Origin: Botrytis cinerea B05.10
Lineage: Eukaryota > Ascomycota > Leotiomycetes > Helotiales > Sclerotiniaceae
DNA length: 64,000 nucleotides
NCBI RefSeq assembly: GCF_000143535.2
Contig: NC_037313.1
Coordinates: forward strand, 1,309,501-1,373,500
Reading direction: 5' to 3'
Numbering within the stretch: position 1 is the stretch's first letter; every line of letters begins with the position of its first letter. Both the position numbers and the translations under genes were made by a program. The notes under the pieces were generated by a model, which saw nothing but the letters and a program-made list of their open reading frames with translations, was not told the DNA's origin and made no database searches. Shown here piece after piece: positions 7,176 through 13,139 of the stretch.

Positions 7176-8047
7176 TTATTCAGATGGGACTATAGGTAGA
7201 GCATCAAGTTTTTCCTGAATTTCTCCTTCTCTTTGATTTTCATTTTCATTCTCGTTCTTGTTTTTCTCCTCTTCCCTCTCCCTCTCCTCCCTAACCCTCG
7301 CATCACAAACCCCCGGAAACGCACACTCACAGCCCATCTCAGCCCCTCTCTTCACACTCCTCATCGTAAGACTCCATCTTCCCTCCCTCCTCCTCTTCAC
7401 CCCCTCCCCATCAAACTTCCTCCCCCTAATCCCATGCACAAACCCATACCTCGCCTCCCCCCTCATAACCAACAAACTCCTCTCCCCCAACCAAACCTCC
7501 CACTTCTCCTCCCCATCATCCTGCGCTTGCGCCCTCGCCCTCCCACTCCCCACCCCACCCCCTCCCCCAACGACCTCTTCGGCCTCCTCATCTTCCTCGC
7601 CTCATTCTCTCCACACCTCTTAAACCCCATCGGCACCGCCGACCCCAAACTCAAACTATACAAAAACTCTCCAAACGCCGAGTGCGTATCCACATGCGGC
7701 GGGATGCCCGTGCCAGGGGGATAATACTGCACGGTAAACTGATCGACCGTGCCCCCCTCCTCCCGAAACGGCAACCGCCCCACCAACCTCTCAATCCACC
7801 CCGGAACATCCGTCCACATTTCCGACGCGCAGAAAGTCGTATAGTCGAAATGCGCACCGTAATGCATCGTCTGTCGCTTACCGATTCCGCACCAACGATC
7901 ATCTTTCTGGATCGAAGCGATGATTTCGGCTTCTTCTTGAGGCGTGATGAAGTTGGAGTAGAGCGCGAGTCCATTTTCCCAATGTTGGATGGAGGGATCG
8001 TGAGGATCAGGGGTGGGAAATGGATTCGTGCTTCCCATATTTTCCAT
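7176..8047 (-). CDS. AlkB-family 2OG-Fe(II) dioxygenase (ALKBH8-like), frame broken
   Basis: The N-terminal frame (from 8047) encodes the AlkB core up to about residue 160. It includes the iron-binding HxD motif as HVDTH (H118, D120, H122) and the strand YSLSLGSAVPMGF. The remaining core lies in another frame ending at 7176. It carries ERSLLVMRGEARYGFVHGIR, which contains the distal iron-binding His, and RWSLTMRSV, whose Arg would bind 2-oxoglutarate. The two halves fit the family without a gap, but no intron joins them. The shift falls in a G-run on the coding strand (plus-strand C tracts at about 7541-7570). AlkB proteins oxidatively demethylate nucleic acids; the ALKBH8 type acts on tRNA wobble bases. 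An assembly indel in the homopolymer, or a real mutation, are the main options. Confidence 0.75.
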
Positions 8048-8567: not shown

Positions 8568-8689
8568 ACTTTTTTTATTTTAATATAAAATAGTTTATTA
8601 CACAATTGTTACAACGGATTAGTAACAGGCTGTAGAATCACCAACTTATAGGCTATAGTAGTAGAGGGAATCTGTTAAATAAGCTTTAA

Positions 8690-8900
8690 AGCTTTCGATT
8701 CTTTTAAAACTTTTGATTCTTTTAAAACTTTCGATTCTTTTAAAACTTTCGATTCTCTTAAAGCTTTCGATTCTTTTATAGCTTTTGATTCTTTTAAAAC
8801 TTTTGATTCTTTTAAAACTTTTGATTCTTTTAAAGCTTTTGATTCTTTTGAAACTTTCGATTCTTTTATAGCTTTTATAGCTTTCAATTTTTTTTATAAC
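8690..8900. repeat. 18-bp tandem repeat array
   Basis: About eleven units of the type TTCTTTTAAAACTTTTGA, varying at a few positions (AAAAC/ATAGC, TTGA/TCGA). Because the period is a multiple of three, the minus strand reads as a repetitive K-E-S-K-x-L peptide, but there is no surrounding gene evidence. Confidence 0.88.
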
Positions 8901-9273: not shown

Positions 9274-12200
9274 TTACTCATCGGTAACCGAAGCGAACTT
9301 ATCAGTCATAGCTTGAACAAGATCCTCGTACTATAAAAATGTTAGATATACATACTATCAGAAAAGTGAATACTATGGATGAATGTACCTTCTTTGTGAT
9401 CTTTTCCTCGCCTTCACTTGGAACCTCAAATTTCATACTTCTCAATTGGGATTGAAGATCTCCAGTAGCTTCACGTACTTTAGCCCAACTTTGACCTTGT
9501 GCGACTGCTTTTTGAGCCTCGTCGTGGAATCCCATCATTGCCTTCATCATCCATTCAGTCTTCCAAATAGGACAGAATTGATCATAGTCACTGTAACCAT
9601 TTTGTTGCAAGAAATCTTCCTTGATCAATGAAGATACATCCAAAGTAATCTTGTCAGGGTCGGATAATGCTGATTTTCCAACCAATTGTACGACTTGATC
9701 TAATTCTTCAGAATCAGATAGAAGTTGCTTGATGCGGTCTCGAAGTCTGGGAAATTCGGGGAAATCCTTTTCGTAGTATTTGTCGAGAACGGTAGTATAT
9801 TTACTGTAACTGACTGAAGTGTTGATAGAAGGGAAATGTTTACGTTGAGCAAGTTTCTTATCGAGACCCCAGAAAACTTGCACAATACCCAAAGTACTAC
9901 TTGTCACAGGATCGGAGAAATCACCACCAGGGGGACTGACGGCACCGACAATACTGACACTACCTTCACGGTCAGGTCCACCAAGTGCTTGAACTTTACC
10001 AGCACGTTCGTAGAAACTAGCAAGTTTAGCTCCAAGATAGGCGGGGAAACCTTGATCAGCAGGCATCTCTCCCAAACGACCAGAAATTTCACGAAGAGCC
10101 TCAGCCCAACGAGATGTGGAATCAGCCATCATGGCGACATCTTTACCCTGATCGCGAAAGTATTCTCCTATCGTGAGACCTGCGAAATCGAAATATAATT
10201 AGCAAATGAATGTACAATAATTGAGCCATTGGTAAATGAGCCAGTGAGATGTAATGATGTCCAGTAGATAAGCCGGTAGAGTGTTGTCCTATGGATGGAG
10301 CCAGTAGATCGATTTGTCGATAAAGCCAGTAAATGAGCCAATGAACGACCCTGTCGATTGTTGTCAAATGAGATAGATCGAAGATAGTTGATGATAGTTG
10401 TTGGGATTAGGATGGGTAAGAATAGTCCAAGAAACATCAGAAATCTAAACAGATTCTAATTTCTTTTTGTGCGATGGAGTAGCATTATGACGATTCAATG
10501 CCCAATTGGTGTCGAAGGACTTGTTGCAGGTGTTGCAAGAATGTTCGCCACTAGCTTTTGCATTGGCACGTATGGTTTTTCGGTTGATGGAATACTGAGA
10601 CATCTCAGGCTTCTCAATCCCAGCCACAGAATCAGCATGACTTTGTGTCAACAGATGTTTATCGAGTGCTATCTGACTTTGTAGAGACATTTGGCAAACA
10701 TCGCAAGAAAAGCGATTGCTAGATAGAGCATTTCCTCTAACTTTAGCCGCAGTTTGGTTGACTTTGTCTCGGTTTTTAGCAGCCCAAGCATTCTTCATGA
10801 TCCGATCTCGCGCAAGATAAGCATCGATGTCTTTGTTTCGTACGGTTTCTCGATGTCGTTTTGATCTATCAGCTCTTCGTTGAACTTGTTTGGCGGCAAT
10901 GATCTCAAGTTCTTCTTCCGTTAACTTAAAATCCCCAACCAGCTTTTCCTTAATAGGAAGATGAGTGCAAGATGGCTCCCAGCTAACTGTGTCACATTCC
11001 CAAAGTAGCAGATGTTCGTAGTATTCATCTGTGATCATCTTGAACTTGGCGTGAAACAAACAAGTGAAAATCGACTCCAGTGCTAAAATGCGAGCTCTAA
11101 CACGAGGAACGAGACCAGCAGATGGTAATGGAGTCCAGCAGAGCAGACCAGAGTGTGCCAATCGATAGCCATCTTGATACCCTTGACGTACAAAGCGAGG
11201 GAGAACTCTATGTTCCATATTTTCGTAACTTTTAAGTCGATGTTTGACGCCATATACTGCATCTGTGCCAGAGCCGATATAGATCTTGGGTTTGCAATGG
11301 ATTTTCTTGATAACAATAACATAGACCCCCCAAACTCTCTCCACAGGCTTGGGTAGGGATTGGAGAAAGTCGATGTTGGGTGGATGTGAGGATGTGAGAA
11401 CTTGATGCAGGTTTGGTGCAAGTTCAAGAGGCGAACATGTAGCTATGCTATCATAAGAAGATCGGCTATCAAAGACAGCTCTGAAGGTGTTATTGATGTA
11501 CCAAGAAGGTGCATCAATGTTGATCAATGCCCATGTCTTGTCTTCCAACATTTGGCAAACATCATTGTGGAAGGGATTGCTGTTATCAACATCAGAATCA
11601 TCTGAGTCGAACTTGGATTTGGAATCCATTGATTGCAGCTTGAGCAGCTTCGAACTTTCCGCGAGTACCATGAACGATAGTGATTGATGTTGCTAATTGT
11701 TATAGTTTATAGATCCTGTATAATGGCATTTGAATCTCGTTGCTCCAGATAGTGAGGTGATGAAAGAAAGATCAGGACCAGGTGGCTGCTGATTTCCAAT
11801 AACTCACCGACTTACTGACTGATGAAGGGAAGGTGCTGGTGTAGGTGCAGGTGTAGAGTTGAAAATACGGAAAGAACATGTTGGGGGGACTTGCCAGTAT
11901 AAATAGAAGCTTCACGAGCAGCGACAGGCATGTTGGATGTGTTAGCAATAAGTGTGGTACGCTTCATGATAGGCTCTTTACGTCCATCTATGTCAATGGA
12001 AAGTTCTGGGAAATCCATCAAGACTTCAGCCATCTCGTTTCCACGCTCTCCACTGTATTTGATATTAGTACAATGACGCCGTGAATTAAAAAAGATGAAA
12101 ACTTACCATCCAACATATACAATAATATCACTGTTCGAGAACTTGGAAACAGATTGACTAATAACAGTCTTACCACAACCGAAAGCACCTGGGATGGCAA

Positions 12201-13139
12201 CGGTTCCTCCTTGAACACTAGGGAAAAGGGCATCCAAAACACGTTGACCAACGATAAATGGCTTGTCTGCTGCCAATTTTTCGGTAGTTGGTCGTGGCAC
12301 ACGTACAGGCCATGTGTGCATCATGCTATATTCGGTCTTCTTGCCATCAAATTCAACCTCGAGGATCTTTTGGTCGACCTTGTAGCTTCCCTTTTCAGCG
12401 ATGCGGGTAATTGTACCTCTGGCTCTGGGTGGGAAAAGAATTTTGTGGTCGTCCAAGAGGGAGTTCTCGTAGACGGTACCCCAAATATCGCCTCCAGTAA
12501 TGTGATCTCCAACCTTCATAATCGGCTTGAAGTCCCAATCCTTTTCTCTGTTTAAAGCCGGAGCGGAAACACCACGGGGAATGTAGATACTTTGGGAATT
12601 GTCTGCGATAGCTTTGAGAGGTCTTTGAATACCATCGTAAATTGTTTCCATAAGACCTGGACCCAACTCGACGGACAAAGGCTTTCCAGTGCGCACAACG
12701 GGATCTCCAACAGTAACACCAGCTTTATACCCCAACAGTCAGTTATAAATCCAACCTAATGCCTTGTGTTTTCCCATACCTGTTTCCTCGTACACTTGAA
12801 TAGTCGCTCTATCCGCTTCGATTCGAATAACTTCACCGACAAGGTTATCGTGACCGACTTTGACCTATTCATAAGTTAGCAACACAATAGTTGGGTTAGA
12901 TTGTCAAATCAAACTGACCAACTCGTACATGGCAACTCCGATCATGTTCTCTGCCACCACGACAGGACTAAGATATAATTAGCTAGAGAAAGGCAGATTG
13001 ATGGAGTCTTCCACAAACCCTGATACGGAGTAAATTGAACCTGTCGACGGGCGATTAGCAATTACGTTGGTAGGATACGGAAAACAGGCCCAGACGTACC
13101 AAATTGATCCTCTCCGTCTGCATCTCGTTGAGGGGCCAT
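9274..13139 (-). CDS. vma-1: V-type H+-ATPase catalytic subunit A
   Basis: Eight exons (13139-13100, 13040-13019, 12967-12919, 12864-12780, 12722-12107, 12052-11895, 10179-9389, 9330-9274) join in frame to 605 residues, close to other fungal VMA1 proteins without intein. The Walker A segment [11 protein letters not shown] lies in exon 5. EASIYTG closes exon 6, and [14 protein letters not shown] with the PPGGDFSDP loop follows in exon 7. Subunit A hydrolyses ATP in the V1 sector that acidifies vacuoles and endosomes. The fifth intron splits the Cys codon of YVGCGERGNE, exactly where the yeast VDE intein is inserted; here there is no intein. The sixth intron (11894-10180, 1715 nt) has a GC donor (G|GCAAGT) and an AG acceptor, and hosts the nested nuclease ORF. 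The other introns are about 56-80 nt. Confidence 0.97.
10180..11894 (-). other. Giant GC-AG intron 6 of vma-1
   Basis: The intron lies between EASIYTG and LTIGEYF. Splicing here restores a perfect conserved protein sequence, which fixes both ends. Its 1715 nt is more than twenty times the other introns of the gene. The donor is GCAAGT rather than GT. A strong AG acceptor-like site follows at 11820-11819, with GTAAGT (11815) and GTGAGT (11807) donor-like sites just downstream, so the first 76 nt could be an older, normal-sized intron into which the element arrived. The tail (10180-10444) is noncoding. Confidence 0.9.
10445..11671 (-). CDS. Nested GIY-YIG nuclease with C2H2 zinc fingers (intron-encoded)
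   Basis: A complete 408-residue ORF with ATG and stop lies on the host strand wholly inside vma-1 intron 6. A GIY-YIG nuclease core is visible. GVY (residues 115-117) and YIG (131-133) are present; R145 follows in KHRLKSY, and a probable catalytic Glu (E199) lies in [11 protein letters not shown] basic, helical stretch (about 250-310) leads to two C2H2 fingers with CX2CX12HX5H spacing (C323-H345 and C379-H401), suited to DNA or RNA binding. GIY-YIG enzymes with separate DNA-binding domains are typical of homing endonucleases in mobile introns. The ORF is not fused to the host frame, so it is not an intein. Promoter and expression are unknown; it may be made from its own transcript or from intron-containing pre-mRNA. 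Confidence 0.85.
   Translation of the reverse strand: MVLAESSKLLKLQSMDSKSKFDSDDSDVDNSNPFHNDVCQMLEDKTWALINIDAPSWYINNTFRAVFDSRSSYDSIATCSPLELAPNLHQVLTSSHPPNIDFLQSLPKPVERVWGVYVIVIKKIHCKPKIYIGSGTDAVYGVKHRLKSYENMEHRVLPRFVRQGYQDGYRLAHSGLLCWTPLPSAGLVPRVRARILALESIFTCLFHAKFKMITDEYYEHLLLWECDTVSWEPSCTHLPIKEKLVGDFKLTEEELEIIAAKQVQRRADRSKRHRETVRNKDIDAYLARDRIMKNAWAAKNRDKVNQTAAKVRGNALSSNRFSCDVCQMSLQSQIALDKHLLTQSHADSVAGIEKPEMSQYSINRKTIRANAKASGEHSCNTCNKSFDTNWALNRHNATPSHKKKLESV

Follow-up and report, generated by a model that had tools for sequence, protein, structure and literature searches.

The sixth intron of vma-1, the gene for V-ATPase subunit A, carries an intact nuclease open reading frame (ORF) in Botrytis cinerea B05.10. 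The gene lies in a 64,000-nucleotide (nt) stretch of contig NC_037313.1 (positions 1,309,501 to 1,373,500, forward strand), which as a whole is referred to here as the window. Based on sequence comparison, the ORF is probably a GIY-YIG homing endonuclease gene, one of a family that in filamentous ascomycetes occupies spliceosomal introns of strongly conserved protein-coding genes in the nucleus. An earlier note on this DNA had proposed a homing-type mobile gene that uses a spliceosomal intron as shelter or, equally, a captured nuclear gene. The first proposal is supported by paralogues in other introns of the genome, gene models that fuse nuclease ORFs to nine host genes, a homologous site in rotary ATPases, a family tree sorted by host gene, and an I-TevI-like predicted fold; the second fails to explain any of these.

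The gene and its sixth intron were delimited mainly by in-silico splicing, and the nuclease from the ORF list and the alignment of its relatives. The features in the window are as follows.

9274..13139, minus strand: vma-1, host gene; exons 1-7 spliced in silico, ATG at 13139, stop near 9274 and last intron placed by eye.
11895..11914, minus strand: 5' exon flank of the putative target, ending ...TTTATACTG (from the sequence).
10180..11894, minus strand: vma-1 intron 6, 1,715 nt, GC-AG, phase 1, containing the nuclease ORF (in-silico splicing).
11889..11894, minus strand: intron 6 5' splice site GCAAGT, a GC donor (in-silico splicing).
10445..11671, minus strand: GIY-YIG/C2H2 nuclease ORF of 408 codons and a stop codon, with Met15 at 11629 as the likely start (ORF list, relatives' alignment).
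10955..11338, minus strand: GIY-YIG catalytic domain, residues 112-239.
10637..10705, minus strand: C2H2 finger 1, C323-H345 (Pfam C2H2 match, alignment).
10469..10537, minus strand: C2H2 finger 2, C379-H401 (Pfam C2H2 match, alignment).
10198..10203, minus strand: branch-point-like GCTAAT, about 20 nt upstream of the acceptor (by eye).
10180..10182, minus strand: intron 6 3' splice site CAG (in-silico splicing).
10146..10179, minus strand: 3' exon flank of the putative target, GTCTCACGATAGGAGAATACTTTCGC... (sequence, alignment).

In-silico splicing confirmed the earlier placement of an intact 408-residue ORF on the host (minus) strand between the EASIYTG and LTIGEYF segments. Splicing through exon 7 gave lengths of 59, 51, 54, 57, and 54 nt for introns 1 to 5 as compared to 1,715 nt for intron 6, and removal of the latter joins EASIYTG^LTIGEYF in frame. 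The ends are those of spliceosomal introns: GC-AG in vma-1 and GT-AG at the two other nuclease loci of this genome described below (the three loci are L001-L003). By eye, GCTAAT, TACTAAT, or AGCTAAT stands close to each of the three acceptors. The insert does not behave as an intein, since translation carried on past the donor in the vma-1 frame stops after 26 codons, well ahead of the ORF. A cmscan search of the three loci at E <= 5 returned three matches, none of them a group I or group II intron, a non-match being no proof of absence.

The longest open run in intron 6 is 415 codons, and the maximum in 1,000 Markov resamplings was 243; the ORF is therefore not a product of chance. Its composition is nuclear-like, with a third-position GC content (GC3) of 0.41 (0.385 in vma-1), eight TGG codons, and no in-frame TGA. 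Because several relatives start with an M..DSDD-like stretch near Met15 (window 11629), the true start may be this residue, and the first 14 residues are possibly non-coding. The earlier assignment of GVY, YIG, a following Arg, a downstream Glu, and two CX2CX12HX5H fingers held up in the alignments and Pfam C2H2 matches. The catalytic residues were judged against Tyr, Tyr, Arg, and Glu, which we take to be the GIY-YIG active-site set. GVY (Y117), YIG (Y131, G133), R145, and E199 are invariant in a 33-row alignment (A1) of the window protein and 32 of the 55 proteins from the first protein search. In a 58-row alignment, Y131, G133, and R145 are present in 58/58 rows, Y117 in 57/58 (one gap), and E199 in 57/58 (Lys in P0038). 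Both fingers are present, with C323/C326/H339/H345 in the first and C379/C382/H395/H401 in the second. It should be noted that P0038, from Colletotrichum kahawae, is a gene model with a tandem partial and a longer nuclease copy and is perhaps a decaying member of the family.

The predicted structure models are confident (pLDDT, predicted local distance difference test, 91.4 and 91.5) and place a GIY-YIG fold with a beta-beta-alpha-beta-alpha core in the catalytic domain, followed by a predicted helical linker and the C2H2 fingers. When the catalytic domain alone was searched with Foldseek, the I-TevI catalytic domain appeared at ranks 1-3 (E 0.02-0.07). A sequence search of the PDB with the family profile aligned, among the 60 of 247 matches listed, via the finger end of the profile. 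An assembly chimera, raised as a possibility in the earlier note, is unlikely because P0001, a protein from a different source, is 99% identical to the window protein with few substitutions.

A search of the genome (42.6 Mb in 18 contigs) revealed two paralogues of the vma-1 nuclease, in introns of the genes for mitochondrial F1-beta (atp2) and an Ssb-type Hsp70. The atp2 paralogue is 48% identical and lies in a 2,164-nt GT-AG intron (L002 3562..1399); the Hsp70 paralogue is 33% identical and lies in a 1,389-nt GT-AG intron (L003 1121..2509). P0056, a protein catalogued under Botrytis cinerea, is 99% identical to this last ORF. The nuclease is on the host strand at 3/3 loci, and six more protein queries gave family matches at only these three. 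Immediately upstream of the nuclease-bearing intron, the Hsp70 gene has a 14-nt microexon (L003 1107-1120). Copies of the 408-residue protein elsewhere, for which the earlier note had advised a search, were thus found in the atp2 and Hsp70 introns, and fused gene models add hosts in other fungi.

Three protein searches (55 proteins, then 10 new, then 6 new) yielded 71 distinct family proteins, 17 of which are gene models with the nuclease ORF fused to host-gene exons. All hosts among these are conserved housekeeping genes, and the models span what we take to be four fungal classes. ATP2 is the host in Ascochyta, Elsinoe, Alternaria, Pyrenodesmia, Fusarium, and Friedmanniomyces; V-ATPase A in Cadophora, whose model is cut off at EASIYTG, where the vma-1 gene of the window is interrupted too; F1 alpha in Aureobasidium; Hsp70 in Botrytis; aconitase in Vermiconidia, Zymoseptoria, and Elasticomyces (two different sites); clathrin heavy chain in Meristemomyces; carbamoyl-phosphate synthase in Aureobasidium and Fusarium; and pyruvate carboxylase in Oculimacula and Elsinoe. 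This amounts to nine host genes, or eight when the two carbamoyl-phosphate synthases are counted as one. A host is known only where a fusion exposes host exons, and the remaining 54 proteins carry no host assignment. Pattern scans of viral contigs and prokaryote genomes, which reach only as far as shared short conserved stretches, gave matches, none of which was confirmed as a relative.

The insertion sites of V-ATPase A (EASIYTG^LTIGEYFRD), ATP2 (ARVALTG^LTVAEYFRD), and ATP1 (LAPFAG^) fall in one alignment column, 397. This result is based on one sequence per gene and holds when missing ATP1 and ATP2 residues are masked. F1 alpha, F1 beta, and V-ATPase A separated long before eukaryotes, which excludes a shared ancestral intron. 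The natural reading of these sequences is that a common DNA target explains the shared site. Across species, the same site is occupied in two taxa for VMA1 and in seven for ATP2 (the boundary in P0011 being known only within a few residues), and the CGPCIG region of aconitase is occupied in two taxa, each visible from one side. VMA1, ATP2, and aconitase, together with the shared ATPase column, hence display the conserved, site-specific position expected of a homing endonuclease gene. A second case in a paralogue pair is provided by the carbamoyl-phosphate synthases. Model P0064 (82% to L029, 62% to L028) breaks off at TVMVN, and P0065 (85% to L028, 47% to L029) resumes at CDRLYF, about a dozen residues further on in the same conserved stretch. 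From domain make-up, and for P0065 also from its database name, we take P0064 to be pyrimidine-type and P0065 arginine-type.

The atp2 exon right after the nuclease intron (L002 1359-1398, minus strand, 40 nt) encodes LTIAEEFREQGQD. The same stretch reads LTIAEYFRDEEGQD in the three solved ATP synthase sequences listed and LTLAEYFRDEEGQD, LTVAEYFRDEEGQD, and LTLCEFFRDEEGQD in the three fused models that show it. Compared with the LT.AEYFRDEEGQD of the other ATP2 sequences seen, the B. cinerea stretch is recoded and lacks one residue, its length being that of V-ATPase, and the recoded exon has ACGATA in common with the vma-1 exon. The sequences suggest that this change may be target-site recoding, giving a resistant target, or a copied (co-converted) exon end.

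The family tree comprised 71 rows, with the fragments P0040, P0042, and P0054 left out. Labelled rotary-ATPase members and members in other genes are on opposite sides of a 100/99 branch. Label changes were counted over 19 labelled rows (P0056 left out as a duplicate) and compared to 300 label shuffles. Host-gene labels required seven changes for eight states, the minimum, which was matched by 0/300 shuffles; with the two carbamoyl-phosphate synthases split, eight changes for nine states were matched by 1/300. For the fungal classes to which we presume the labelled rows belong, seven changes were matched by 146/300. The tree sorts by host gene rather than by fungal class, as expected of homing genes. 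Within this genome, the vma-1 copy and the atp2 copy are not mutual closest relatives (approximately unbiased test, p 0.0057), and the window vma-1 copy lies with the Cadophora vma-1 copy in one 10-row set (100/99). The sequences suggest horizontal transfer of nuclease genes. The case falls short of proof because a single clade of the four Dothideomycete ATP2 rows among the ATP2 rows is neither supported nor rejected (69/15). The corresponding test of all ATP2 rows against the rest is uninformative, since unlabelled rows may also be ATP2.

Several observations weigh against reading the family as homing endonuclease genes or against parts of the evidence for it. Foldseek gave no match at E <= 0.001 for the whole protein or the domain, and the whole protein had no useful match. 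With hhalign, the family gave a weak alignment to I-TevI, at 8% probability over 37 columns that run from GIY to slightly beyond YIG. The Pfam GIY-YIG model is absent from the 10 families matched by the window ORF at E <= 1 and from the 25 of 75 families listed for 33 members. Fusions form only on the same strand, so the 17 models are a biased sample and their orientation is no independent evidence; hosts outside this genome were assigned from automatic gene models in which mostly one side of the insert is visible. The label shuffles disregard relatedness. At the shared ATPase site, the splice position is phase 1 in vma-1 and phase 0 in atp2, 2 nt apart. Finally, three introns without a nuclease lie at or close to family sites in this genome, and there the intron may therefore predate the nuclease: 268 nt between CGPCIG and QWDR in aconitase (L036 1234-1501), 50 nt at MINY^NPET in the arginine-type carbamoyl-phosphate synthase (L028 1416-1465), and 69 nt in pyruvate carboxylase, 5 to 11 residues past the break-off points of the fused models. 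The first is in the nuclease border region of Vermiconidia and Elasticomyces, and the second is near the family site of Fusarium and, in the paralogue, of Aureobasidium.

Our current hypothesis for the homing cycle is as follows. The nuclease would be translated from a transcript that begins inside the intron or retains it. It would then enter the nucleus and cut an allele that lacks the intron, across the conserved sequence of the joined exons (TG^LT.xE[YW]FRD in rotary ATPases), with the C2H2 fingers conferring specificity. Repair from the occupied allele would copy the intron and ORF into the cut site, and the spliceosome would remove the intron, so that the host protein would be unharmed. 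The spliceosome would be the counterpart of ribozyme splicing in group I introns or of protein splicing in inteins. More tentatively, and at somewhat less than even odds in our judgment, these are spliceosome-dependent mobile introns of fungal nuclei. Nuclease gene and intron would move together by cutting intron-less exons, between alleles, species, and paralogues (F1 beta, F1 alpha, and V-ATPase A; the two carbamoyl-phosphate synthases), and nuclease loss would leave an ordinary intron.

An alternative that we consider rather unlikely is that mobile nuclease genes invade pre-existing spliceosomal introns. The introns themselves would be immobile; the nuclease would have to recognize intron or exon-intron sequence in order to home, and its gene would simply find a safe landing place in the intron. 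This is favoured by the introns of this genome that lack a nuclease at or close to family sites (aconitase, arginine-type carbamoyl-phosphate synthase, and pyruvate carboxylase), and a profile search of the first two found no nuclease remnant. Such introns could equally be what remains after ORF loss, and they may be either leftovers or pre-existing introns that the nuclease invaded. Against invasion, three anciently diverged ATPases are occupied in a single alignment column, and the ATP1 gene of B. cinerea lacks an intron at that spot, which together point to recognition of exon sequence. ATP1 reads APFTGTSIGEYFRDNGK there, a natural empty paralogous site; the pyrimidine-type carbamoyl-phosphate synthase and clathrin genes are likewise uninterrupted at family sites in this genome.

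It is improbable that these are domesticated nested genes, a host nuclease family that serves the fungus and lies in introns by happenstance. Intact ORFs and the nuclear-like composition given above would fit such a family, but the many different hosts, all of them housekeeping genes among the fused models, the homologous sites in paralogous ATPases, and the Lys in the catalytic Glu column of P0038 would not. Mitochondrial group I introns of fungi commonly carry GIY-YIG nucleases, and remnants relocated to the nucleus could derive from such introns. This origin, for which the dead GIY-YIG gene of Ustilago maydis would be the precedent (PMC7593156), is very improbable here given the lack of a group I or II match in Rfam at the three loci (cmscan E <= 5), the standard-code nuclear-like composition, the GC/GT-AG ends, and several intact copies as opposed to a single dead one. 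Chance, annotation, or assembly artefact is negligible in view of the near-identical P0001, an open run beyond all resamplings, the confident models, and 71 homologues.

Two further elements were noted next to vma-1. Downstream of the gene, window 8685-8868 is a tandem array of 10.2 copies of the 18-bp unit TTTAAAACTTTCGATTCT. The adjoining ORF at window 7463-8047, minus strand, resembles by eye a 2-oxoglutarate/Fe(II) AlkB-type oxygenase.

In agreement with the earlier remark that such a lifestyle was not known to be described, we found no report of a homing endonuclease gene in a spliceosomal intron of a nuclear protein-coding gene in the open-access literature (titles and abstract starts, with preprints and most subscription journals outside this scope). 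Homing endonuclease genes shelter in self-splicing introns and inteins because the host gene survives there. I-TevI and other group I GIY-YIG enzymes share with the present family the GIY-YIG fold, the Tyr/Tyr/Arg/Glu residues, intron encoding, a modular build with a separate DNA-binding part, and conserved target genes. In contrast, the introns described here have spliceosomal rather than ribozyme signals, the hosts are nuclear protein-coding genes, the proteins end in C2H2 fingers, and the family has diverged so far that the Pfam GIY-YIG model is not listed among its matches. A further parallel is offered by nuclear inteins, such as those of VMA1 and PRP8: they too are selfish endonucleases, and their conserved sites lie in essential nuclear genes, among them VMA1. 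Their splicing takes place at the protein level and most of them carry a LAGLIDADG enzyme, whereas this family has a GIY-YIG enzyme and its removal would be by the spliceosome. The VMA1 intein presumably sits at the P-loop site, which differs from the EASIYTG^LTIGEYF site of the family. Introner elements and other mobile spliceosomal introns spread into many sites by transposon-like means; the likeness is that spliceosomal introns spread as mobile DNA, and the difference is that the introns of this family carry a nuclease gene and have few, conserved known sites. Set against PMC2814812 (2009), the family described here would supply the spliceosomal case that has been missing. Nuclear ribosomal DNA (rDNA) group I introns with His-Cys homing genes resemble the family in being nuclear and in their relation to spliceosomal splicing. 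There (PMC9548176), spliceosomal introns interrupt the endonuclease gene within an rDNA ribozyme intron, whereas here the gene is within a spliceosomal intron of a protein-coding gene. The closest nuclear case found, UMAG_11064 of U. maydis, is a single dead telomeric GIY-YIG gene of mitochondrial origin (PMC7593156) that disrupts its host gene and is outside any spliceosomal intron, unlike the genes of this family.

The family accounts for a number of fusion entries in public databases whose annotation is probably wrong. If spliceosomal introns are also used for shelter, nuclear protein-coding genes are open to site-specific selfish introns. To our knowledge, few mechanisms of intron gain have been identified. 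The introns of this family appear to be the exception one would predict from a homing enzyme. Since an ordinary intron would stay after nuclease loss, homing would, if true, be one way for nuclear genes to acquire introns, and intron gain could then be tested with an enzyme and a target that are both defined.
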